The notes under the pieces: generated by a model
Told to the model about the DNA's origin: nothing
The model's database searches: none
Seen by the model: only the letters and a program-made list of their open reading frames with translations
DNA from: Parerythrobacter lacustris
GTDB taxonomy: Bacteria; Pseudomonadota; Alphaproteobacteria; Sphingomonadales; Sphingomonadaceae
Direction of reading: 5' to 3'
Assembly (NCBI RefSeq): GCF_024626475.1
Contig: NZ_JANKHH010000005.1
Location: 310,001 to 374,000, forward strand
Length of the DNA: 64,000 bases
Translations under genes and position numbers: made by a program
Shown: positions 5,767 through 52,281 of the stretch, piece after piece
How the letters are laid out: every line of letters starts with the position of its first letter
Position numbering within the stretch: position 1 is the stretch's first letter

Positions 5767-6414
5767 TCAAGCCGGAGTATCCTGAGCGGGAATGACGAGA
5801 TGACGGGTCACCTGGTCACGCGGCGGGAGGTTCTCCAAGCGCAATGCCCAGTCCGGATCGGATCGACGGATGGCCGTCGCCGAACGCGGGTCGGGATCGA
5901 AACGCAAGGTCACCAGTGTCGGCGCGCTCCATTTGCCCCTTGTGAAGAAGCCGGCAAGAGGAACGCGAAACTTCCTCAACCAGGCCATTGCGGGGCTGGC
6001 AACGGCAGCACTCTCATAGCCGGGTCGGGCAATGACCGCAATCGGCATTGCGCGGGCGATCCCGCGCCAGTCCCGCCATCGGTGGAACTGGGCAAGATTG
6101 TCCGATCCCATCAGCCAGACGAATTCATGCTGCGGATAGCGGCGGCGGATCGCCGCCAGTGTTTCGACAGTGTAAGGCGTGCCGAATTCCGACTCGATAG
6201 CGGTGACCCTAATCGGCGCGCGGCGCGCCTGCGCCATCGCCGATCGAAAGCGCGCGGAGAGAGAGGCCATGCCCTTTGAGGGCTTGAGCGGATTGCCGGG
6301 CGAGACCATCCACCACACTTCGTCGAGGTGTAGCGCCTCGATCGCGAACAGGGTGATTCGCCGATGACCGCCGTGTGCCGGGTTGAAGCTGCCGCCAAGC
6401 AGGCCGATCCGCAT
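5767..6414 (-). CDS. nadD: Nicotinate-nucleotide adenylyltransferase
   Basis: Transfers AMP from ATP to nicotinate mononucleotide in NAD synthesis. The 215-residue product starts MRIGLLGGSFNPAHGGHRRI, which has the nucleotidyltransferase GGSFNPxHxGH motif, and carries FVWLMGSDNLAQFHRWRDW, typical of NadD. The SxTxIR-type C-terminal motif is present as SATAIRRSD. The frame is open to 6537, but the ATG at 6414 is correct because the beta1-loop motif must lie at the N terminus. It probably heads the nadD-rsfS-rlmH-envC-ctpA series and faces away from the M23 gene across a 269-bp gap. Confidence 0.94.
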   Translation of the reverse strand: MRIGLLGGSFNPAHGGHRRITLFAIEALHLDEVWWMVSPGNPLKPSKGMASLSARFRSAMAQARRAPIRVTAIESEFGTPYTVETLAAIRRRYPQHEFVWLMGSDNLAQFHRWRDWRGIARAMPIAVIARPGYESAAVASPAMAWLRKFRVPLAGFFTRGKWSAPTLVTLRFDPDPRSATAIRRSDPDWALRLENLPPRDQVTRHLVIPAQDTPA

Positions 6415-6566
6415 CACCAGGCCGCCTTCATCTTGAATTGAAACGGGAAAATTCTCGCCGCGCTCATGCTTCGCCAGTCCTAGCACGCGGTTTCGGAAAA
6501 GACAGCCGATTGCGGAACAAAACCGAGAGCTGAACATTCAAAGTTAACCGACGAGGCGAGGTAATC

Positions 6567-6664
6567 GACTCGTCGCGCGAGTCCATCGACTCGCCTATTC
6601 GCATGCAAGTCCGATTCGACGCTCCCTGATTCCCGTGCTAGCCGCGCCGCTCAAATCAAGAATC
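6567..6664. promoter_or_regulatory. Cluster of six GANTC sites upstream of the M23-bactofilin operon
   Basis: GANTC occurs at 6567, 6579, 6588, 6613, 6628 and 6660. The first two form an inverted repeat (GACTCG and CGAGTC around TCGCG), and ATCGACTCG is repeated at 6564 and 6585. GANTC is the CcrM methylation target in alphaproteobacteria and can regulate promoters together with GcrA. The cluster lies between divergent nadD and the M23 peptidase, nearer the latter. I do not see a clear -35/-10 pair in the gap. Confidence 0.5.
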
Positions 6665-6683: not shown

Positions 6684-7844
6684 TTGCATAATTCACAGAC
6701 ATCGGGCGGTTGGGGGCGCCGCCTGGCGAACTGGTTTCCTGATCGCGAGTTCTTCATGCGATCGCAGGGTCAGGTCCGCTTCATCAAGATTACCTCGCGG
6801 GTACAGATTTTTGCGGCGGCGATAGCTGTGACTGCTCTGCTGGCTTGGGCCATTTCAATGGCCGTCATGGCCTGGTCGCAATATGCCGCAGGTGCCGAAC
6901 GCGCATCGCTGCTCCAGCGCGAAGCGAAGGTCGCCAGCGCCGAGGAGCGCTTCGACGATTATTCGAACGACCTCGGCAAGGTAGTCGAAGATCTCAACGA
7001 GCGTCAGAAGCTGCTCGAAATGGGCACAGAAATGCTGCCCGAAGACATTCGCGACGAGGAAACCGTTTCGGATTCGTCGACCGAAGCTGCGGAAACAGCC
7101 GACAAGGTCAGCGCGCTGTTTCCTGAAGCTCGTGAACTGGCGCAGCTCGAAGCGCGTCAGCTCGCCCTGGCAGAACGTCTCACCCGTTTTGCCGACCGCC
7201 GCTCTGCACAGGCCGCCGAAGCACTGCGCAAACTGGGTCTCGATCCCGCTGCGATGGTGCGCGGTGCCGATCGGACCGCAATGGGTGGCCCGTTCGAGAA
7301 GCTCGCCTCGTCGCGCAATGGCGCGCTCGATCCGCGCTTCGAGCGGCTGGGTCTGAGCTTGTCGCGCATGGCCGCGCTCGAACGCACGCTGGACGGCATT
7401 CCACAGGTCCTGCCCGCCAGCCGGGCATCGATTTCCTCGGGCTTCGGTTATCGTCGTGACCCGTTCAACGGCCATGCCGCGATGCATTCCGGGCTCGATT
7501 TCAAGGGTCCGATCGGCGCTCCGATCTATGCCGCCGCCGACGGCCGCGTCAGTTTTGTCGGCCGCAAGTCCGGATACGGCAACGTCGTCGAGATCAGCCA
7601 TGGCAATGGGCTGATGACCCGGTACGCGCATATGTCGCGGTTCAACGCCAGAGTGGGGCAGGTGGTTGAAGCCGGTCATATCATCGGAGCCATCGGCAAT
7701 ACCGGCCGCTCGACCGGCCCGCACCTGCATTTCGAAGTGCGGGTCAACGATCGCGCGGTCAATCCGCGCCCCTTCCTGGAGAAAGCCCCCAATGTTCTCA
7801 AAGAAGCCCGAACCGCAGGGCCGCGCAAGCAGGCCGGCGCCTAA
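6684..7844 (+). CDS. M23-family (LytM) metallopeptidase, membrane-anchored
   Basis: Zinc endopeptidase expected to cut peptidoglycan cross-links in the periplasm. The 386 residues hold a short cytoplasmic part, one membrane helix (about 42-65), a coiled-coil stalk (about 70-200) and a C-terminal M23 domain. The zinc ligands are intact: HSGLDF for HxxxD and GPHLHFEVR for HxH. The start is a TTG at 6684; an ATG at 6756 would also keep the membrane helix. The last 53 bp overlap the bactofilin gene. M23 peptidase-bactofilin pairs control cell shape in Helicobacter and some alphaproteobacteria, and I infer the same here. Confidence 0.9.
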   Translation: MHNSQTSGGWGRRLANWFPDREFFMRSQGQVRFIKITSRVQIFAAAIAVTALLAWAISMAVMAWSQYAAGAERASLLQREAKVASAEERFDDYSNDLGKVVEDLNERQKLLEMGTEMLPEDIRDEETVSDSSTEAAETADKVSALFPEARELAQLEARQLALAERLTRFADRRSAQAAEALRKLGLDPAAMVRGADRTAMGGPFEKLASSRNGALDPRFERLGLSLSRMAALERTLDGIPQVLPASRASISSGFGYRRDPFNGHAAMHSGLDFKGPIGAPIYAAADGRVSFVGRKSGYGNVVEISHGNGLMTRYAHMSRFNARVGQVVEAGHIIGAIGNTGRSTGPHLHFEVRVNDRAVNPRPFLEKAPNVLKEARTAGPRKQAGA

Positions 7845-8316: not shown

Positions 8317-9978
8317 TCAAGCGAACACTTCGGCGCGCAGCGCCTTCCGATCGAGCTTGCCGACCAGCGTCTTGGGCAGCTCGTCGCGAATGACCACACT
8401 TGAAACCCGCTCGTGCTTGCCAAGTCTCGGGTTGACCCAAGCCAGTAGTGCGTCGGCATCTGCCGGCTCGTCGAGGGTCACATAGGCCCGGGGCACTTCT
8501 CCGCGATAGTCGTCGGGTACGCCGATCACCAGGGCTTCCTTGATCGCCGGATGTTCCACCAGCACGGCCTCCACCTGGCTCGGGAAGACCTTGAAGCCGC
8601 CCACGGCAATCATGTCCTTGATCCGATCGACGATGGTGAGAAAGCCGTCCGCGTCCAGCCGCGCGACATCGCCCGTACGCAGCCAGCGTTTGCCGCCGTG
8701 CTCGACAAACACCTCCGCGGTCGCTTCGGGCATGTTCCAGTAACCGCGCATGATCTGCGGGCCATGGATTGCCAGCTCGCCCGGTTCGCCTTCTGCCGCG
8801 AGCTTCGCCGGATCTTCCTTGTCCAGCAACAGGATTTCGGTCCCCGCGACGACCTGCCCGATCGAGCCGGCTCGGCGCTCGCCTTGGTAGGGATTGGCCG
8901 ACACCACGCCCGAGCTTTCGGTCAGGCCATAGCCCTCGACCAGACGCACCCCGGTCAATTGCTCGAACTTCTCCCGCAAGGGGGCCGAGAGCGGCGCACC
9001 CCCCGAAATGCAGACCTTGAGCGAAGACAGGTCGGTCGAAGCCAGCGCCGGGCTATCGACGATCGCCTGGAACATGGTCGGAACCCCGGGGAATCCGGTC
9101 GGGCGGGTCCGTTCGAGCGTCTTCAACACCGCAGCCGTCTCGAAGCGCGGAACCATCGCGATGGCCGCTCCGGTGGCCACCGCGTGATTGAGGACGCAGG
9201 TATTGGCGAACACGTGGAACAGCGGCAGCGCCCCCATGATCACGTCATCTTCGGGGCTGGCAAAGGAATTGATCGCCGCCACCTGCTGTGCATTAGTCGA
9301 AAGGTTGGCGTGGGTGAGCATCGCACCCTTGGGCCGGCCGGTGGTGCCGCCGGTGTATTGCAGCAGCGCGACCTCTTCAGGGTCGAGAACGGGGAAGGCC
9401 GCAGAGGCGCTGTCCGCCAGCCAGCTTTCCCAGTCGCCGACATCGCTCCGCGCCGGGATCACAGCGATGTCACGCCGACGGAGCAACCGGAGCGCTATGC
9501 CCTTCAGGGCTGGAAGTTGCCGCGACAGCCGCACCACCGACAGGTGCTCGAGCGTCGAGGCATCGAGCACCTTGAGTGCTGTCGGCAGCAGCGCGGGCGC
9601 ATCGAGCGTCACCAGCAACCGTGTGCCCGAATCCTCCACCTGATGCGCCAGTTCATCGACCGTATAGAGCGGCGAGAAATTGACCACCGTCGCCCCTGCC
9701 AGCATGGCACCATAATAGGCCGCCACATAGGCCGGGACATTGGGCAGGAAGAGCCCGACCCGATCACCTCGCTCGATTCCCCGTGTCAACAGCCCGCTGG
9801 CAAAACGTCGCGCCTCGTCGAAAAGTGCGGCGTAGGAAAAGCTTCGCCCCATAAACAGGACGAGCGGCTTCGCGCCGCGTCGTGCGGCCGTGCGCGCGAA
9901 CAACTCCGGCAGCGGAATGGCATCAAACCGCGTCGACCATGGAGTGGGGTGATGATAGGGCAAGCTACTGACATCCAT
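8317..9978 (-). CDS. Long-chain fatty acid--CoA ligase
   Basis: ATP-dependent acyl-activating enzyme that forms acyl-AMP and then acyl-CoA, feeding beta-oxidation or lipid synthesis. The 553-residue length is typical of FadD. The AMP-binding P-loop-like motif LLQYTGGTTGRPKGAMLTH is intact, as are VEGYGLTESSGV, the WLRTGDVARLD aspartate motif and the C-terminal catalytic-lysine region ELPKTLVGKLDRKALR. The start at 9978 (MDVSSLPYHHPTPW) is where family similarity begins; the frame is open further upstream but adds Arg-rich sequence. Substrate chain length is not resolved. Confidence 0.92.
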   Translation of the reverse strand: MDVSSLPYHHPTPWSTRFDAIPLPELFARTAARRGAKPLVLFMGRSFSYAALFDEARRFASGLLTRGIERGDRVGLFLPNVPAYVAAYYGAMLAGATVVNFSPLYTVDELAHQVEDSGTRLLVTLDAPALLPTALKVLDASTLEHLSVVRLSRQLPALKGIALRLLRRRDIAVIPARSDVGDWESWLADSASAAFPVLDPEEVALLQYTGGTTGRPKGAMLTHANLSTNAQQVAAINSFASPEDDVIMGALPLFHVFANTCVLNHAVATGAAIAMVPRFETAAVLKTLERTRPTGFPGVPTMFQAIVDSPALASTDLSSLKVCISGGAPLSAPLREKFEQLTGVRLVEGYGLTESSGVVSANPYQGERRAGSIGQVVAGTEILLLDKEDPAKLAAEGEPGELAIHGPQIMRGYWNMPEATAEVFVEHGGKRWLRTGDVARLDADGFLTIVDRIKDMIAVGGFKVFPSQVEAVLVEHPAIKEALVIGVPDDYRGEVPRAYVTLDEPADADALLAWVNPRLGKHERVSSVVIRDELPKTLVGKLDRKALRAEVFA

Positions 9979-39193: not shown

Positions 39194-40162
39194 TCAGATA
39201 TCGCCGCCCGTGAGTCGCTGGCAGATCAAGTCGAGCTGGTCGAGCGTGCGATAGCGGATCGTCACCGCCCCGGTACGCGGGTCGGTATCGGACTTGATTC
39301 GCACCGAAAGCCCGAGGAACTCCTCGAGATGTGCCTGGACCGCGGCGATATCCGCATCCTTGGCCGGATCGCGCGACGACCTGGGGTGCCGCACGCCTTC
39401 CGCAGCCGCGCCGCCTTTGCGAGCAAGCCGCTCGATTTCTCGGACCGAGAGTTTCTTCGTCACCGCAGTTTTTGCTAGCTCCGCCGCATCGTCATGCCCG
39501 ACCAGCGCGCGGGCATGACCCATGCTGAGTGAGCCGGAAACGACCAAATCGAGCACGGCCTCCGGCAGGCCGAGGAGCCGCTGGAGATTGGCCACATGAC
39601 TGCGCGACTTGTCGACCAGCTTGGCGATCTCGGCTTGCGTCATTCCCTCTTCGTCCGCAAGTCTTTGATATGCCTGCGCTTCTTCGATGGGATTGAGGTC
39701 TTCGCGCTGGATGTTCTCGATCAACGCCAGCGCCATAACCTCGCGCTCTTCGAGCTCGCGCACCAATGCGGGAATCTCGTGCAGCCGCGCTTTTTGTGCC
39801 GCACGCCAGCGGCGCTCGCCAGCCACCAACTGGTAGCGCCCATTTGCCAACGGCCTGACGATGACCGGCTGGATCACGCCGCGCGCGGCGATCGATTCCG
39901 CCAGTTCCTCCAACGCTTCCTCGGCAAAATGTCGGCGCGGCTGACCCGGATGCGGCTCGATCGCTGAAACCGGTAGCGAGGCCAGTCCGCTGCTGGGTGT
40001 CGATATCGATCCCGCAACGTTTGACGTGCCGCCTGTGACCAGCGGTTCTTCACGCCGGCTTTCACCCATCAGGGCCCCTAGCCCCTTGCCCAACCGCTTG
40101 GGTTTCTCGCTCTGGTTGCGCAGCGGCACCGAGAAACGGATCGGGTCGGTCGGGTTGCTCAT
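39194..40162 (-). CDS. parB: Chromosome partitioning protein ParB
   Basis: CTP-dependent DNA clamp that loads at parS and spreads along the origin region. The 322 residues show the ParA-interacting N terminus with PKRLGKGLGALMG, the CTPase/ParB domain (about 65-160) with ARGVIQPVIVRPL and GERRWRAAQKARL, ENIQREDLNPIEEAQAYQRL, then a helix-turn-helix with TQAEIAKLVDKSRSHVANLQR and a C-terminal dimerisation domain. The start overlaps the parA stop by ATGA. Two perfect parS sites lie 1-3.5 kb upstream of its start, inside or next to rsmG and mnmG. Confidence 0.97.
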   Translation of the reverse strand: MSNPTDPIRFSVPLRNQSEKPKRLGKGLGALMGESRREEPLVTGGTSNVAGSISTPSSGLASLPVSAIEPHPGQPRRHFAEEALEELAESIAARGVIQPVIVRPLANGRYQLVAGERRWRAAQKARLHEIPALVRELEEREVMALALIENIQREDLNPIEEAQAYQRLADEEGMTQAEIAKLVDKSRSHVANLQRLLGLPEAVLDLVVSGSLSMGHARALVGHDDAAELAKTAVTKKLSVREIERLARKGGAAAEGVRHPRSSRDPAKDADIAAVQAHLEEFLGLSVRIKSDTDPRTGAVTIRYRTLDQLDLICQRLTGGDI

Positions 40163-40935
40163 GCCGCTTTCCTCTGTTCGGGCAGACGTCCGATGAGTTC
40201 GCGGGCCAGCGCGATATAGGCGCGGCTTCCGGTGCAGTTGTGATCGTAGATCAGGGCCGGCAAGCCGTGGCTTGGCGCTTCGGACAGGCGCACATTGCGC
40301 GGGATAACCGATTCGAACACCAGATTGCCGAGGCAATCGCGCACGTCGTCCGCCACCTGGTCGGTCAGCCGGTTGCGACGGTCGAACATGGTCAGAGCGA
40401 TCCCGATTATGCCCAGGTCGGGGTTGAAGCGCTGCTGGACCTGCTCGACCGTTTGCAGCAGCTGGCTAAGACCTTCCAGAGCGAAGAATTCGCATTGGAG
40501 CGGGACCAGCAATGTGTCGGCCGCCCCGAGCGCATTGAGCGTCAGCAACCCGAGAGAAGGGGGACAATCGATAAAGCAGATATCGTGTCCGCGATGCTGC
40601 CTCAGTGCCGAACCCAAACGATGCGTACGGTTTTCAACCGACACGAGCTCGACTTCAGCGCCGCTCAGGTCAACTGTAGCGGGAATGAGGTCGAGCCCGG
40701 GTATCTCGGTCGCATGGATGCAGTCTTGGATGGAGCGTTCGTCAATCAGCACATCATAAGTGGAGCTTTCACGGTGTGCGGCATCGATCCCGAGCCCTGT
40801 GGAGGCATTCCCTTGCGGATCGAGATCGACCAGTAGGGTCCGCCAGCCGGTCGCCGCCATAGCGGTCGCGATATTGATCGCCGTGGTGGTTTTGCCCACC
40901 CCACCCTTCTGATTGGCGATGGCTATGGTGATCAT
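40159..40935 (-). CDS. parA: Chromosome partitioning ATPase ParA
   Basis: Deviant Walker-type ATPase that moves ParB-parS complexes toward the new pole. The 258-residue protein has the deviant P-loop KGGVGKTTTAINIATAMA at the N terminus, DLDPQGNASTGLG, and Walker B DICFIDCPPSLGLLTLNAL. It carries no N-terminal DNA-binding extension, so it is the chromosomal type Ia-short form. Its ATG overlaps the rsmG stop, and its stop overlaps the parB start, both by ATGA. The full order mnmG-rsmG-parA-parB is conserved around bacterial origins. Confidence 0.97.
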   Translation of the reverse strand: MITIAIANQKGGVGKTTTAINIATAMAATGWRTLLVDLDPQGNASTGLGIDAAHRESSTYDVLIDERSIQDCIHATEIPGLDLIPATVDLSGAEVELVSVENRTHRLGSALRQHRGHDICFIDCPPSLGLLTLNALGAADTLLVPLQCEFFALEGLSQLLQTVEQVQQRFNPDLGIIGIALTMFDRRNRLTDQVADDVRDCLGNLVFESVIPRNVRLSEAPSHGLPALIYDHNCTGSRAYIALARELIGRLPEQRKAA

Positions 40936-41594
40936 GCTTTCCCTCCATCAAGCCGGACGAGCGCCGTCTTGGTCAGATGTCCGACGACGATACCTGCCTC
41001 CACATCGGTTACCGACTGTTTCACGTGAAACATCTGCTTGAGCCGCTTCGGCAGTTCCTCGACTTCCTGCGCCGCAGAGCGTCCCTTGGGCAACAGCCAT
41101 AAGGTGTCGGTTGTGGAGAACCTTGCGGACAGATCGAGGATACGGCGCAATGGGGCGAAGGCGCGTGCGCTAATTGTCCCGGCATGAAACGTAGTGACGA
41201 GCTCCAGCTTCGACCCCTCGACCCGGCAATTGACCAGCCCAAGAGCTTCTACCATGGCTCCCAGCCACGCGAATCGCTTGCGGCGCGATTCGACCAGCAC
41301 AACAGGCATATCCGGACGCATTGCTGCAACAACGATACCTGGCATTCCGGGGCCGGAACCGAGATCGAGCCATGGCCCGTCGCCTGCCTTGCCCTCAGGG
41401 GCAAGAGCGAGCAACTGCGCACTATCGGCGATATGCCGTTGCCAAACGATCGCCTCGGTCGGCCTGGATATCAGGTTTTGCCGCGTGTTTTCCTCGAGCA
41501 GAAGAGCAACGAAGCGATCGAGCCGCTCCATCGCCTCGAGATCGCACAAGGATTCGACGTAGCTGCGCGCCGATGTCTCGTCGTATATCTTCAT
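40932..41594 (-). CDS. rsmG: 16S rRNA (guanine527-N7)-methyltransferase
   Basis: Methylates G527 in the 530 loop of 16S rRNA with S-adenosylmethionine. The 220-residue protein has [23 protein letters not shown], the SAM motif [16 protein letters not shown], and [21 protein letters not shown] perfect parS site (41017-41032) lies inside the coding sequence near the C-terminal end. It is coupled to mnmG and parA by ATGA overlaps on both sides. Confidence 0.96.
41017..41032. promoter_or_regulatory. parS site (perfect consensus) inside rsmG
   Basis: TGTTTCACGTGAAACA, identical to the canonical 16-bp palindromic ParB target of bacterial chromosomes. It lies within the 3' half of rsmG, about 80 bp upstream of the parA start. 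Confidence 0.95.
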
Positions 41595-43447
41595 GCTGCC
41601 AACTGTTCACGCCGGCGCGCGTGGACCAGAAGTGCGGAAAGGGCCGCCGGGGTTATGCCGGAAACTCGCCCGGCGGCCGATAGATCCTCCGGCATCGCCT
41701 TGCTCAAGCGCTCGACCATCTCATTCGAAAGGCCCGGGACCTGCGCATAAGGGAAATCAGCCGCCAACTTCACGCCGGTGCTCGATCGCAGGTCACGCAA
41801 CTCGGATTCCTGGCGTTCCAGATAGGGGGCATAGGCAGCGTCTTCAGCCAATTCTTCGGCAATATCCCGTTCCACGTGGAACATTGGCGGGAGCCAGGTC
41901 GACAAGGTGGCGAGGTCGATCCCTCCGTAGCGCAGCCATTCACGCAGTGGACGATGCCCGGCGTCGCGCCGCACTTCCACTCCTTTCCCACCCAGGTCGG
42001 CTGCAGTCACAACCGAACCGAGTGCGTTCGCCATCTCCTCGCGCAAAGCGTCCCGCCGCTCAAACCACGCGTCACGCTCAGACCCGAGGCAACCGGCATC
42101 CCTCGCCATAGAGGTCAGCCGGGTTGTCGCGTTGCTTGCACGCAACCGAAGCCGATACTCGGCACGAGAGGTCAGCATCCGGTAGGGTTCGCTGACCCCG
42201 TGCAGCGTGAGATCATCGACCATCACCGCGATATAGCTATTCGCGCGGTCGAGCGGTGCAGGGTCGCGACCCATGACCGCGGCGGAGGCATGCATTCCCG
42301 CCACCAGCCCTTGGGCCGCAGCTTCTTCGTAACCTGTGGTGCCGTTGATCTGCCCCGCACAATAGAGGCCCGGAATCTCGCGCAACTCGAGACCCTTGGT
42401 GAGCGCGCGCGGATCGATATAATCATACTCGACCGCGTAGCCAGGCACTTCCATTTCCACCCGCTCGAGCCCGTCCATCGTGCGCAGCATAGCAAGCTGG
42501 ACATCGGCCGGCAGCGATGTGCTGATCCCGTTCGGATAGACCATGTGGGTCGACAAGCCTTCTGGCTCGAGAAACACCTGATGCCCGTCGCGATCACCGA
42601 AGCGGTGGATCTTGTCCTCTATCGAAGGACAATAGCGCGGGCCCTGCGCATCGATCGCCCCGCTGAACAGCGGCGACCGATCGAGATTGGCGCGGATGAG
42701 ATCATGGCTCCGGGCGTTGGTGCGGGTTATCGCGCAGAACACCTGCGGGTTGCGCCGCTGTCGCACCATCGGGGACATGGTCCAGTCCTCGCTGTCCGAA
42801 GGCTGCTCCTCAAGCTTCGCCCAGTCGATCGTCCGCCCGTCGAGCCGGGGCGGCGTTCCTGTCTTTAGCCGTGCCATCGGCAGATCGGCTCCTCGCATCT
42901 GTGTCGCGAGCTTTTGTGCGGAGGACTCGCCGATGCGCCCTCCGGTCAGTCGTTCCTCGCCCCGAAACAGTGTGCCGCCGAGGAATGTGCCGGTACAAAG
43001 AACTACCGCTTGAGCGGTTACGCTCGTCCCGTCGGCCAATCGCAAGCCAGCAGCTCTTCCACCATTGAGGAGAAGCTCGGCCACCTCCCCTTCGATCACC
43101 GTAAGGTTCGCCTGAGCGGCAACGATTCGCTGGACCTCAGCCTTGAACAACGACCGGTCGGCCTGCACCCTCGGGCCCCAGACAGCGCTCCCCTTCGAAC
43201 GGTTGAGCATTCGATAATGGATCGCTCCCGCATCCGCAGCGCGAGCAATGACTCCATCGAATGCATCGACCTCTCTGACAAGATGGCCCTTGCCCAACCC
43301 GCCAATCGCCGGATTGCAGCTCATCGCACCAATCGCCGAGGCATCGAATGTCACGAGTCCTACGCGTGCGCCCATCCGGGCCGCCACGCAGGCAGCCTCG
43401 ACCCCGGCATGACCGCCGCCAACAACCAAAATCTCCAAGCTGTGCAT
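41591..43447 (-). CDS. mnmG: tRNA uridine-5-carboxymethylaminomethyl modification enzyme MnmG (GidA)
   Basis: FAD enzyme that, with MnmE, modifies the wobble uridine of several tRNAs. The 618-residue product starts [19 protein letters not shown] (FAD-binding GxGxxG) and has [20 protein letters not shown], the catalytic-cysteine region [15 protein letters not shown] and CPSIEDKI, and [18 protein letters not shown]. The ATG at 43447 is used; a longer frame to 43465 adds six residues. It overlaps rsmG by ATGA. A parS-like site lies within it and another just upstream of its start. MnmE is 103 bp upstream on the same strand. Confidence 0.97.
41868..41883. promoter_or_regulatory. parS-like site inside mnmG
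   Basis: CGTTCCACGTGGAACA. It keeps the CACGTG core and matches the GTTCCACGTGGAAC variant bound by ParB in several bacteria; only the first base departs from TGTTCCACGTGGAACA. It lies in the 3' part of mnmG. Confidence 0.8.
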
Positions 43448-43492: not shown

Positions 43493-43508
43493 TGTTTCAC
43501 GTGAAACA
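43493..43508. promoter_or_regulatory. parS site (perfect consensus) upstream of mnmG
   Basis: TGTTTCACGTGAAACA, an exact copy of the site in rsmG, located in the 102-bp gap between mnmE and mnmG, 46 bp before the mnmG start. Besides centromere function, ParB binding here could influence mnmG transcription. Confidence 0.95.
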
Positions 43509-46212: not shown

Positions 46213-46614
46213 ATGAGTGCAAAGATCGGTCTCGCCCGCTGGCACGAAGCGATCAGGTCTGGCAGCGATCCCGCGGCGCTGGCCGCGATAATCCGCGAGG
46301 ATGCCGTGTTCCATTCGCCGGTGGTGCATACCCCGCAGGTCGGTCGCCCGATCGTGGTCGCCTATCTCTCCGCTGCTGGGCAAACGCTCGGTAACGAGAG
46401 CTTCGCCTATGTCCGCGAGCTGGTCGACGGGAATGACGCGATGCTCGAATTCACCACCGAAATGGAGGGCATTCACGTCAACGGCATCGACCTGATCCGG
46501 TTCGACGACGACGGGATGATCGCCGAGTTCAAGGTGATGGTTCGCCCGCTGAAGGCGGTAAACAAGGTATGGGAGATGATGGCCGCGCAACTCGAACAGG
46601 CGAAATCGGCCTAG
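46213..46614 (+). CDS. Nuclear transport factor 2-like (SnoaL-type) protein
   Basis: A 133-residue protein of the NTF2 fold: a helical start (LARWHEAIRSGSDPAALAAI), then IREDAVFHSPVVHTPQVGRPI, LVDGNDAMLEFTTEMEGIHVNG and DLIRFDDDGMIAEFKVMVRP. The family includes isomerases, hydratases and ligand-binding proteins; no catalytic set is convincing here. GAGGAG precedes the ATG. It is the only plus-strand gene between parB and hemE. Its stop shares CTAG (46611-46614) with the convergent 2OG oxygenase gene. Confidence 0.85.
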   Translation: MSAKIGLARWHEAIRSGSDPAALAAIIREDAVFHSPVVHTPQVGRPIVVAYLSAAGQTLGNESFAYVRELVDGNDAMLEFTTEMEGIHVNGIDLIRFDDDGMIAEFKVMVRPLKAVNKVWEMMAAQLEQAKSA

Positions 46615-49003: not shown

Positions 49004-49447
49004 TCAGAACGGTTTGACGATCACCAGAACGACAACCAGGGCAAGGATAATCGCGGGGAACTCACCCCACAGCCGCAGCTGCCTCTCGCTCAATGGCCGG
49101 TCACCGGCAACCATCTTCTTCGCCTGCACCACCATCCAGCCGTGGTAGCCTGACAGCGCGATCACCAGCAGCAGCTTGGCGTGGAACCACCCCTGGCTGA
49201 AGGCACCAATATGCGATGCGAGCAGCAGGCCAAGCACCCACACCACGACGATGCTGGGGGTGAGGATGATCTTGCGCAACAGACCCATCCGCTTGTCCCA
49301 CATGGCGGCTTCCGCCGATCCTGCCGCGGCCGGGTGCAGATAGAGCATCTGGCGCGGCAGCATGAACAGGCCGGCCATCCAGAACACCATGAAGATGATG
49401 TGGCCCGCCTTGAGCCAGTAGTAGGTCAATGTGAGGAATTCCTGCAT
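49004..49447 (-). CDS. hemJ: Protoporphyrinogen oxidase HemJ
   Basis: Membrane enzyme that oxidises protoporphyrinogen IX to protoporphyrin IX. The 147-residue protein has four predicted membrane segments and the family start LTYYWLKAGHIIFMVFWMAGLFMLPR, quoted in part, with the conserved His of KAGHII. WFHAKLLLVIALSGYHGW and RLWGEFPAIILALVVVLVI follow. The ATG at 49447 is the domain start; the frame is open further upstream. It lies 31 bp after hemE, matching their joint role in haem synthesis. Confidence 0.93.
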   Translation of the reverse strand: MQEFLTLTYYWLKAGHIIFMVFWMAGLFMLPRQMLYLHPAAAGSAEAAMWDKRMGLLRKIILTPSIVVVWVLGLLLASHIGAFSQGWFHAKLLLVIALSGYHGWMVVQAKKMVAGDRPLSERQLRLWGEFPAIILALVVVLVIVKPF

Positions 49448-49478
49448 TGGCGCGGTATAGTCCCGGCTTGGGCCCGCG

Positions 49479-50504
49479 TCACCCCTGCCAACTGCGGACT
49501 TGTGCCACGAGGGCCTCGACATGCTCGATCGGGGTGAACTGGCCGATTCCGTGGCCGAGATTGAATACGTGCGGCCGGTCCGCAAAGGCGCGAAGCACCT
49601 CTTCGACCCGTGCATGAAGTGCGTCGCCACCAGCCAAGAGCAGAAGGGGATCGAGATTGCCCTGCACCGGCATACCTGCGGGCAATTCACGCGCCGCCCA
49701 GTGCGGATCGATCGTTTCGTCGACCCCGACGGCATCCACCCCTGTCTCGCGCGCATAGGCGCTCAACTTCTCCCCCGAACCCTTGGGAAAACCGATCACC
49801 GGGGTTTCGGAGCGCTTCGCTTTGAGCTGTGCGGTGATCCGCGCATTGGGCGCGATCACCCAGCGTTCGTACTGGTCGGGTGCGAGGCTGCCCGCCCAGC
49901 TGTCGAACAGCTGCACCGCTTCCACCCCGGCATCGATCTGCGCGACGAGATAGTCCACCGTCGCAATCTCAATCGCCTCGATCAGCGAAGCGAAAGCAGC
50001 AGGATCGCGATAGGCCAGCGCACGCGTTTCTTCCTGGTTCTTCGAGCCCTGCCCAGCCACCATATAGGTCGCGACGGTCCACGGGCTGCCGGCAAAACCG
50101 AGCATAGTGGTTTCGGGACCGAGCGCCGCGCGCGTCAGGCGCACAGTTTCATAGATCGGATCGAGCCGGTCCATTGCGGTCTCGAGCGCCTGCCATACCG
50201 CGTCCACCAGTGGGGGTGCCAGCCGGGGCCCCTCGCCCGCTTCGAACCACAGATCCTGCCCCATGGCATGCGGAATCACGAGGATGTCCGAAAACAGAAT
50301 CGCCCCATCAAAACCGAACCGGCGGATTGGCTGAAGCGAAATTTCGGCCGCCGCTTCGCTATCGTAGGCAAGCGCCAGGAAACCACCCTTCTCGGCACGC
50401 AGATCGCGGTATTCCGGCAGGTAGCGACCTGCCTGACGCATAAGCCACATCGGAACCTGATCGCCCCGCGAACCGCGCAATGTGTCGAGAAGAATACCGG
50501 GCAT
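49479..50504 (-). CDS. hemE: Uroporphyrinogen decarboxylase
   Basis: Decarboxylates the four acetate side chains of uroporphyrinogen III to coproporphyrinogen III. The 341-residue protein has PMWLMRQAGRYLPEYR near the N terminus, with the catalytic Arg pair, GFDGAILFSDILVIPHAMG with the catalytic Asp, and GFAGSPWTVATYMVAG. It ends FNLGHGIGQFTPIEHV. It points away from the proposed oriC in the gap 50505-50827. In Caulobacter and Rickettsia hemE also flanks the origin. Confidence 0.96.
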   Translation of the reverse strand: MPGILLDTLRGSRGDQVPMWLMRQAGRYLPEYRDLRAEKGGFLALAYDSEAAAEISLQPIRRFGFDGAILFSDILVIPHAMGQDLWFEAGEGPRLAPPLVDAVWQALETAMDRLDPIYETVRLTRAALGPETTMLGFAGSPWTVATYMVAGQGSKNQEETRALAYRDPAAFASLIEAIEIATVDYLVAQIDAGVEAVQLFDSWAGSLAPDQYERWVIAPNARITAQLKAKRSETPVIGFPKGSGEKLSAYARETGVDAVGVDETIDPHWAARELPAGMPVQGNLDPLLLLAGGDALHARVEEVLRAFADRPHVFNLGHGIGQFTPIEHVEALVAQVRSWQG

Positions 50505-50827
50505 CGAGCCTTCCTAACAATAAAATGAAATTTTATAAAAGGGTTGAAGGAGTCTGTTGGCCCTGTGGATTGCGGGGACAAGCGTGCCGTGCCCGAATTC
50601 TCCCGTTTTGAACAGCCGGTCGGCGCTATGCGACTCTGCGGAACGCTTGAGTCAAACACAATGTCTCCCCGCTATCCCCAGCCTGTCGACAACCGGGCGA
50701 GCCTGTCCACAAATTGCCGTGGGCAGGACTCGCAGTGGGCATGGAATCGCGCTCCGAACTTGTCGCCAGGGCTGTGCCATGGTTTATGCCGGGCATTGTC
50801 CACAGCCCGAATGCGATCTCTCGCTGC
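50505..50827. other. oriC: Proposed chromosomal replication origin (oriC)
   Basis: A 323-bp non-coding gap between divergent hemE and PPSR genes. The hemE side has an AT-rich stretch (50511-50546, containing TAAAATGAAATTTTATAAAA) in a very GC-rich genome, suited to DNA unwinding. DnaA-box-like 9-mers compared with TTATCCACA: TTGTCCACA at 50796-50804 (8/9), CTGTCCACA at 50703-50711 (7/9), CTATCCCCA at 50672-50680 (7/9) and TGTGGATTG at 50564-50572 on the opposite strand (7/9). Four GANTC sites lie at 50550, 50632, 50649 and 50727. Genes diverge from here on both sides. A start of the PPSR gene upstream of 50828 would shorten the gap but adds no family-like sequence. Confidence 0.75.
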
Positions 50828-51673
50828 ATGAGCCGCCTGCACCTCCACCTCGTATCCGATTCGACCGGCGAAACGCTGGAGATGGTCGCCAAGGCCGCGC
50901 TCGCCCAGTTCGAGGACGCGGATATCGTGCGCCATTTCTGGCCCATGGTCCGCTCGCGCCAGCACCTCGACCGGATCGTTCCGGAGCTGGCGAGCAATCC
51001 TGGGTTGGTGCTGTTCACTCTGGTCAACCCCGAAACCCGCGCGCGGCTGGAGGAGCATTGCCGCCAGCTCGGCCTGCCCGCAGTTCCGGCGCTCGATGCG
51101 GTGACCGAAGCGCTCGAGGCGCAGCTGGGGCAGGAAGCGCATGGCCGCCCGGGTCGCCAGCATCTGATGGACGATGCCTATTTCAGCCGGGTCGATGCGA
51201 TTCACTATACCATCGCGCATGACGACGGGGTCGGGTGGGAAGACTGGGAGGAAGCCGATATCGTGCTGGCAGGCGTGTCGCGCTGCTCGAAGACGCCGAC
51301 CAGTATCTATCTCGCTAACCGCGGCTACAAGACCGCCAATATCCCGCTGGTGATCGAAAGCCCGCCACCATCGAGCTTGTTCCAGCTCAAAAGGCCGCTG
51401 GTTGTCGGGCTGACCACCGCACCCGAGCGGCTGGTGCAGATCCGCCGCAATCGCCTGCTCAGCCTCAACGAGGGAACCGAGACCTCTTATGTCGACGGCG
51501 AAAAGGTGCGCGACGAGATCCAGTTCGCGCGGCGGATGTTCGCCGACAACGGCTGGCCGGTGATCGACGTCACGCGGCGATCGATCGAGGAAACCGCAGC
51601 CGCCGTCATCCGCCTGCTCGGCGAGCGCGATCGAAGGGCCGACGATCAGTTCGAAGGCAGCAAACCGATATGA
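50828..51673 (+). CDS. Pyruvate, phosphate/water dikinase regulatory protein (PPSR, DUF299)
   Basis: Bifunctional ADP-dependent kinase and Pi-dependent phosphorylase that switches PEP synthase or pyruvate phosphate dikinase. The 281-residue protein starts LHLHLVSDSTGETLEMVAKA and has the nucleotide loop GVSRCSKTPTSIYLANRGYKTAN, quoted in part, and ending VTRRSIEETAAAVIRLL. The ATG at 50828 is set by family N termini. It is the first gene to the right of the proposed origin, as in Rickettsia and Caulobacter. Its stop overlaps maf by ATGA. Confidence 0.93.
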   Translation: MSRLHLHLVSDSTGETLEMVAKAALAQFEDADIVRHFWPMVRSRQHLDRIVPELASNPGLVLFTLVNPETRARLEEHCRQLGLPAVPALDAVTEALEAQLGQEAHGRPGRQHLMDDAYFSRVDAIHYTIAHDDGVGWEDWEEADIVLAGVSRCSKTPTSIYLANRGYKTANIPLVIESPPPSSLFQLKRPLVVGLTTAPERLVQIRRNRLLSLNEGTETSYVDGEKVRDEIQFARRMFADNGWPVIDVTRRSIEETAAAVIRLLGERDRRADDQFEGSKPI

Positions 51674-52281
51674 CCGCGCGCGTTCTTTCGGGCAGCGGTT
51701 TTATCCTCGCTTCGAAAAGCGCCTCGCGCCGGGCGATGCTCGATGCTGCGGGACTGGCGTATGAAGCGATCCCGGCGGGGATCGACGAACGCGCGCTGGA
51801 AATCGAAATGGCGGGTTCTCCGGCCGAAGAAGTGGCGCAGGCGCTGGCGGTGGCCAAGGCAGCTGCGGTTTCTGCCGTTCGGCCGGATGCATGGGTGTTG
51901 GGAAGCGATTCGCTGGTGGCGGTCGAGGGGCGGAGGTTCGACAAGCCTGTGTCGCGCGATGATGCCGCCGATCATTTGCGCGCGTTTTCGGGTAAGGTGA
52001 TCGAACTCCACAGCGCAGCCAGCCTGGTGCGCGGCGGCAAGCCTGCATGGGTCGGGCACGATATTGCGTGCCTCTCCGTGCGCAACCTGAGCGAGGATTT
52101 CATCGCCGAATACCTCGACGCCGAATGGCCCGAGGTATCCCATTGCGTCGGCGTGTTCCGGATCGAGGCGCTGGGTGTGCAATTGTTCGACCGGATCGAC
52201 GGCGACCAGTTCACCGTGCTGGGCATGCCGCTGTTGCAGGTGCTCGGCGCCTTGCGCGAACTGGGAGTGCTGACGACGTGA
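51670..52281 (+). CDS. maf: Maf-like nucleoside triphosphate pyrophosphatase
   Basis: House-cleaning enzyme that hydrolyses non-canonical or modified nucleotides. The 203 residues show the Maf signature FILASKSASRRAMLDAAGL, the base-recognition DSLVAVEGRRFDKPVSRDDA and VGVFRIEALGVQLFDRIDGD (quoted as separate landmarks). The middle EYLDAEWPEVSHCVGV suggests the YceF-like branch more than dTTP-type YhdE; preference for m7GTP is only a guess. Both ends overlap neighbours: ATGA with PPSR and GTGA with aroE. Confidence 0.92.
   Translation: MTARVLSGSGFILASKSASRRAMLDAAGLAYEAIPAGIDERALEIEMAGSPAEEVAQALAVAKAAAVSAVRPDAWVLGSDSLVAVEGRRFDKPVSRDDAADHLRAFSGKVIELHSAASLVRGGKPAWVGHDIACLSVRNLSEDFIAEYLDAEWPEVSHCVGVFRIEALGVQLFDRIDGDQFTVLGMPLLQVLGALRELGVLTT

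Follow-up and report, generated by a model that had tools for sequence, protein, structure and literature searches.

Prediction of a hemE-side chromosomal replication origin with a variant opening tract in Parerythrobacter

The 323-bp gap that separates hemE from the PPSR gene in the genome of a marine Parerythrobacter is, with very little doubt, the chromosomal replication origin (oriC), its role in replication being predicted from comparisons of sequence. It very probably belongs to a kind of origin already published, of which the opening tract is the variant part. An earlier note had proposed positions 50505-50827 as a candidate chromosomal origin, and the proposal is supported here by the architecture shared by 81 gaps, by parS sites, by a switch of GC skew near the gap in three relatives and by the persistence of the arrangement in genomes that do not have PPSR. 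The window, that is, the whole stretch of 64 kb that was analysed, is part of contig 8 (387,719 bp) of a genome of 3.06 Mb in 12 contigs. The host is a Parerythrobacter (Erythrobacteraceae), and its closest named relative by PPSR protein is Parerythrobacter lutipelagi (96%). The divergent genes start at 50504 (hemE) and 50828 (PPSR), and Pfam bore out the identities previously given to both of them. The gap and the genes considered are as follows:

39194-40192, minus strand: parB (Pfam)
40159-40935, minus strand: parA (Pfam)
49479-50504, minus strand: hemE, uroporphyrinogen decarboxylase (URO-D, Pfam PF01208)
50505-50827, no strand: oriC candidate, the entire hemE/PPSR intergenic region (conservation across 81 gaps, Pfam flanks)
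50828-51673, plus strand: PPSR, kinase-pyrophosphorylase (Kinase-PPPase, Pfam PF03618)
51670-52281, plus strand: maf (Pfam PF02545)

By Pfam, the neighbours of the hemE/PPSR pair on the right are maf and a DnaQ-like exonuclease (RNase_T), and to the left of the gap are rho, mnmE, mnmG, rsmG, parA, and parB. The crude gene caller left uncalled stretches longer than the hemE/PPSR gap elsewhere in the window; the longer ones examined contain plausible open reading frames (a hemJ-like one at 49004-49450, a bactofilin, and a cytidylyltransferase-like one at 5767-6537), some of them confirmed by Pfam.

The comparison set consisted of our own gap, those of loci L004 and L005, and 78 more taken from a list of 80 loci in relatives. 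Left out were L006 (the same locus as L004), L038 (no hemE, the available sequence beginning 307 bp before PPSR), our own copies L001 and L003, and the dnaA locus L002. In all 81 gaps (our own and 80 relatives) hemE is divergent to PPSR, and the gap is 315-386 bp long. The elements in our sequence, with their conservation, are listed from the hemE side:

50511-50540, no strand: AT-rich candidate duplex-unwinding element, the 30 bp of highest AT in the window (0.87)
50545-50563, plus strand: strongly conserved non-repetitive element, with a single base reaching 80% or more in 17 of its 19 columns
50564-50572, minus strand: box A, DnaA-box-like, CAATCCACA, at most 2 mismatches in 81/81
50672-50680, plus strand: weak DnaA-box-like site CTATCCCCA, 32/81
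50684-50692, minus strand: weak DnaA-box-like site TTGTCGACA, 39/81
50703-50711, plus strand: weak DnaA-box-like site CTGTCCACA, 15/81
50753-50794, no strand: conserved block ahead of box F (conservation)
50796-50804, plus strand: box F, DnaA-box-like, TTGTCCACA, at most 2 mismatches in 79/81

The AT-rich stretch noted earlier on the hemE side holds as the window's maximum over 30 bp, with the best 40 bp for AT (0.75) beginning at the same base, 50511; in every one of the 81 gaps, the first 60 bp are at least 55% AT. Beside it is the best-conserved block, the 20 columns 50544-50563, with 1.56 bits as compared to 0.94 for the whole gap, and each of the columns 50556-50569 is at least 90% one base. 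Box A is reversed and found 55-66 bases from the start of hemE in 81/81; box F faces it, typically at about base 292 of the gap, and the box-like sites in the middle are variable (13-48 of 81 gaps).

Sites resembling the DnaA box at up to two mismatches are strongly enriched. Our own gap has five, against 0.62 in shuffles, none of 1000 shuffles reaching five, and the 81 gaps together have 365, nearly six times the shuffle mean of 64. Across about 152 kb of our own sequence, 0.14% of gap-sized windows match the gap's count, and the six highest listed all start at 50400-50560; in gap-free samples of G001 (the closest species) and G003, 0.09% and 0.015% of such windows still reach the count of the respective genome's gap. 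Of the 9-mers pointed out earlier, TTGTCCACA at 50796-50804 was found again and the outer two sites proved to be conserved, but boxes with one mismatch are no commoner in the whole window than chance predicts (2 seen, 3.7 expected), and their count was dropped as evidence for an origin. The gap has no perfect DnaA box. In the genome as a whole, TTNTCCACA is not enriched (24 sites versus 31 for a control pattern), and nowhere are two such sites less than 4 kb apart, which was counted as agreeing with oriC.

Since two genes do begin at the gap, and since the block at 50753-50794 before PPSR could be regulatory, possibly with a role in PPSR expression, the conservation might be that of two divergent promoters, unrelated to replication. 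This is very improbable given the excess of DnaA-box-like sites and the relatives' skew and parS, which point to the gap (see below). Moreover, the scan of 50400-50950 found no sigma-70-like promoter or terminator, other promoter types being outside its scope. A search of 49500-52000 against Rfam, with E values up to 1 allowed, was negative; an RNA of the Caulobacter origin, CcnA, is described in PMC8959179.

A natural comparison is offered by the genomes of the order in which PPSR has no match, 12 of 147, all of one genus of the family (12 of the 12 searched from that genus). The surroundings of hemE were viewed in eight of these 12 (L195-L202), where its neighbour is a Maf-like gene (Pfam Maf in 3/3 tested, the rest by eye). 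Between these two genes, all eight genomes have 3-9 GANTC and retain an AT-rich stretch (by eye), and in each of them a box reading TTATCCACA or TTTTCCACA is close to maf; the core of box A is unrecognisable, its best match having 7-10 mismatches of 22. This comparison indicates that origin-like DNA persists without PPSR and that box A is not kept everywhere, and the survival of box, AT-rich stretch, and GANTC in 8/8 is a further argument against a mere pair of promoters.

The arrangement extends well beyond the clade. Divergent hemE and PPSR, with a gap of 290-1067 bp, were seen at 59/59 loci of the order and the class, our own included, all of them best-scoring matches. The class gaps comprise best-scoring matches and, in addition, 40 from a list of about 70 other places, and are not a random draw; hemE is present in 52 of 60 further stretches, and the eight of 40 class stretches without it were dropped. 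The hemE/PPSR pair is not universal, since 43 of the 143 genomes searched in the class yielded no match to PPSR.

The chromosomal position of the gap was evaluated by parS sites, GC skew, the location of dnaA, and the direction of genes. Both parS and parAB are within about 11 kb of the gap, the parS sites being:

41017-41032, no strand: parS, perfect TGTTTCACGTGAAACA, within the rsmG reading frame (pattern search)
43493-43508, no strand: parS, perfect, between mnmG and mnmE (pattern search)

These are the only two parS of our genome at up to two mismatches, 7-10 kb from the gap. The distance is 5.6-10.8 kb in G001, G002, and the four genomes behind named loci; G001 also has one weaker parS (2 mismatches) on another contig. 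Weaker copies with 3 mismatches occur in our window at 41868 and 43531.

GC skew, named earlier as a check on the origin, was sampled in three relatives as 10-kb pieces: 41 in G002 (15% of the genome), 40 in contig 1 of G001, and 40 in G003 (12% of the genome). In G002, the best split is at 455-480 kb and the gap at 507 kb, with none of 2000 permutations as strong and a bootstrap range (5-95%) of -109 to +113 kb; 15 of 21 pieces to the right of the gap are positive and 15 of 20 to the left are negative. In contig 1 of G001, the split is at 1290-1320 kb and the gap at 1250 kb, with 9/10 right pieces positive and 23/30 left pieces negative. In G003, the gap is at 2677 kb and the split at 2780-2860 kb, a distance of 103-183 kb; 64 of 2000 permutations are as strong, and the bootstrap leaves a broad range, from -857 to +203 kb (15/20 and 15/20 pieces by side). 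The relatives therefore show no minimum elsewhere within the sampling resolution (splits 27-183 kb off), but inside the window itself skew does not turn at the gap (-0.015 left, -0.018 right). Because of this, and because our contig stops 27 kb beyond the gap on that right side, the skew of our own genome speaks neither for nor against the origin.

In many bacteria, oriC is located beside dnaA. The true origin might by analogy be at dnaA, with the hemE neighbourhood being merely an inherited gene order, and the earlier observation that the window has no dnaA was confirmed, the genome having its single Bac_DnaA match on contig 1. However, dnaA is 303 kb (G001), 362 kb (G002), and 381 kb (G003) from the gap, in the negative-skew arm of each of these genomes, and in our own genome the 40 kb on either side of this gene are free of TTNTCCACA, leaving an origin at dnaA with hardly any probability. 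An origin on the hemE side is as expected for the class, and it is of use for orienting genomes of the Erythrobacteraceae, for which dnaA is no guide. A search for dif with an E. coli-type 22-mer, allowing 3 mismatches, gave no match in three genomes.

As for the gene directions, all genes to the right of the gap are indeed on the plus strand as previously described, but the left side has one plus-strand exception, 46213-46614 (SnoaL-like). The leading-strand bias read from this pattern did not hold genome-wide in G002, with a plus-strand coding share of 0.43 to the right and 0.42 to the left (crude caller, 41 samples). The local pattern is therefore weak evidence, and gene-strand bias was dropped as an argument for the origin.

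Within the predicted origin, the part that differs from those of many other alphaproteobacteria is the tract separating the AT-rich stretch from the box, which in our own clade is occupied by the conserved non-repetitive element. In many gaps of other orders and families, this tract is a run of TAG, TTG, and TGG. Runs of at least three T-[A/G/T]-G were counted, the count being repeated on all gaps regardless of a recognisable box, in 27 of 60 gaps of other orders, against a shuffle mean of 1.7 (maximum 6), and in 15 of 24 of other families (mean 0.5, maximum 3), and never on the opposite strand; they were not seen in the remaining 33/60 and 9/24. In our own clade, such a run occurs in 1/71 (shuffles: mean 1.9, maximum 9). 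The rule was set after viewing 33 gaps of the class and order; among the gaps fetched afterwards, 13 of 32 from other orders and 13 of 20 from other families have a run (shuffle means 0.85 and 0.47, maximum 4 each).

The tests of periodicity and of the published NAN rule used only gaps with a recognisable box, namely 20 of 60 for the class, 18 of 25 for the order, and 81 of 81 for our own clade. Where the box is clear (36 tracts), G recurs periodically: 164 of 275 are in phase (shuffles: mean 132, maximum 143). With the phase set by G only, T comes first in 0.68 of cases versus 0.35 by chance, and the middle base tracks composition (A 0.35, T 0.41, G 0.24); going by these tracts, the middle base of the trio looks free in other alphaproteobacteria. 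Our own clade has no three-base periodicity, as 213 of 430 G fall in the best phase and shuffles give a mean of 205 with a maximum of 222. The trio rule of PMC8287927 calls for three or more NAN trios no farther than 16 bp from a DnaA box. This is rarer than in shuffles in all three sets (2/19, 4/17, and 12/68); our own sequence fails it, and among the clade's 68 unique tracts 12 pass, compared with a shuffle mean of 28. Canonical DnaA-trios were thus rejected for our own clade, the NAN, periodicity, and T-[A/G/T]-G tests all being negative.

In the basal unwinding system (BUS), the DnaA-trio is described as 3'-GAT-5', with a middle adenine called conserved, and the survey of the same report gives no trios for 15% of origins and suspects deviant ones without that adenine (PMC8287927). 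The T-N-G tracts are a concrete, countable candidate for the latter. In Bacillus subtilis DnaA, Asn187 holds the middle adenine and Arg202 and Glu228 hold the guanine, and in the words of the authors none of these residues is universal, their properties being generally kept (PMC10721633). Our own DnaA was aligned with 8btg, in whose numbering Glu183, Asn187, Ile190, Ile193, Asn196, Arg202, and Glu228 all fall on the right letters; at the positions of Asn187, Arg202, and Glu228 it has Val, Lys, and Glu, and three relatives of the clade have the same Val. Such a Val fits a code in which G is read but the middle base is not. We tentatively propose, giving it somewhat less than an even chance, that the alphaproteobacterial code is 3'-G-N-T-5', with G and T read and the middle free because the DnaA has no Asn to hold the middle adenine, and that the Parerythrobacter clade would use the 19-bp element and another opening rule. 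To link residue 187 to the wider class is a guess, the Val being known from our own DnaA and the three clade relatives only. Among the matches listed, no paper on trios in alphaproteobacterial origins was found; the BUS survey, which covers classes of Proteobacteria, may hold some. The T-[A/G/T]-G tract elsewhere and the conserved non-repetitive element in our own clade may be the new part of this work. Furthermore, the clade offers a natural example of an origin that retains the box, the GC-rich spacer, and the AT-rich stretch but has no repeat, and this, together with the Val at the Asn187 position, provides a direct test of single-strand recognition by DnaA.

The layout suggests how the origin might work. 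DnaA, produced from a distant gene, would bind the weak boxes over about 240 bp between the facing sites at 50564 and 50796, and from box A a DnaA filament would extend toward hemE, over the conserved element 50545-50563. The filament would then open the AT-rich 50511-50540, where the helicase would be loaded. ParB bound to parS, 7-10 kb off, would next separate the new origins.

The oriC of Sphingopyxis, another genus of the same order, is likewise beside hemE; the DnaA boxes in its gap are conserved, and an unwinding element has been proposed there (PMC4741004). The Cori of Caulobacter crescentus is also on the hemE side, with an AT-rich region and mostly weak DnaA boxes (PMC8959179). The BUS has the same order of parts—DnaA box, short GC-rich spacer, and a tract leading into AT-rich DNA (PMC8287927, PMC10721633)—but our own clade is without the trio repeat, and in other alphaproteobacteria the repeat is T-N-G, with a middle base that seems free where the published rule needs an A (PMC8287927).

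The gap is also rich in GANTC, with a density of 4.3 per 325 bp in the gaps compared with 0.59 in the flanks. The sites of our own gap are:

50550-50554, no strand: GANTC inside the conserved element, 61/81
50632-50636, no strand: GANTC, candidate CcrM target, 81/81 (with A at N in 43, C in 38)
50649-50653, no strand: GANTC, 40/81
50727-50731, no strand: GANTC, 31/81
50744-50748, no strand: GANTC, 20/81

In the conserved element 50545-50563, the site reads GAGTC in most gaps. A CcrM-like protein with N6_N4_Mtase and RAMA domains is encoded elsewhere in the genome; among 14 control genomes, the RAMA model matched in Caulobacter only. GANTC sites have been reported in the Caulobacter Cori as well, and in that species initiation control was described as normal without CcrM, which is not required for it (PMC3973325). 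These sites could instead be parts of binding sites for DnaA or another protein and not methylation signals, an explanation we consider plausible, if a little less probable than its opposite. The Caulobacter result fits it, and so does the invariant site at 50632, which takes only A or C at N and is preceded by GC in 64 of 81 gaps, as part of a longer motif would be; in addition, 0.2-0.6% of other gap-sized windows in four genomes have as many GANTC. Against it are the density, the several separate sites that are kept, and the enzyme encoded in the genome. If the sites are methylation signals, they would perhaps be methylated by the CcrM-like enzyme and may mark newly copied origins, with a conceivable bearing on the timing of replication.

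The CtrA box has the motif TTAA-N7-TTAA. It is found in none of the 81 gaps, seven of which have a TTAAC/GTTAA half-site. In contrast, five full CtrA boxes are described for the Caulobacter Cori (PMC8959179).

Clusters of GANTC were also observed at other places. In locus L247 (contig 1 of G003, about 335 kb), a window of about 330 bp from base 8780 has eight GANTC, versus four in the origin of that genome. In our own window, six GANTC are present within 100 bp, at 6567-6664. Immediately after them come the genes of an M23 peptidase (6684-7844) and of the bactofilin, and the segment with the six sites is possibly a promoter controlled by CcrM/GcrA.
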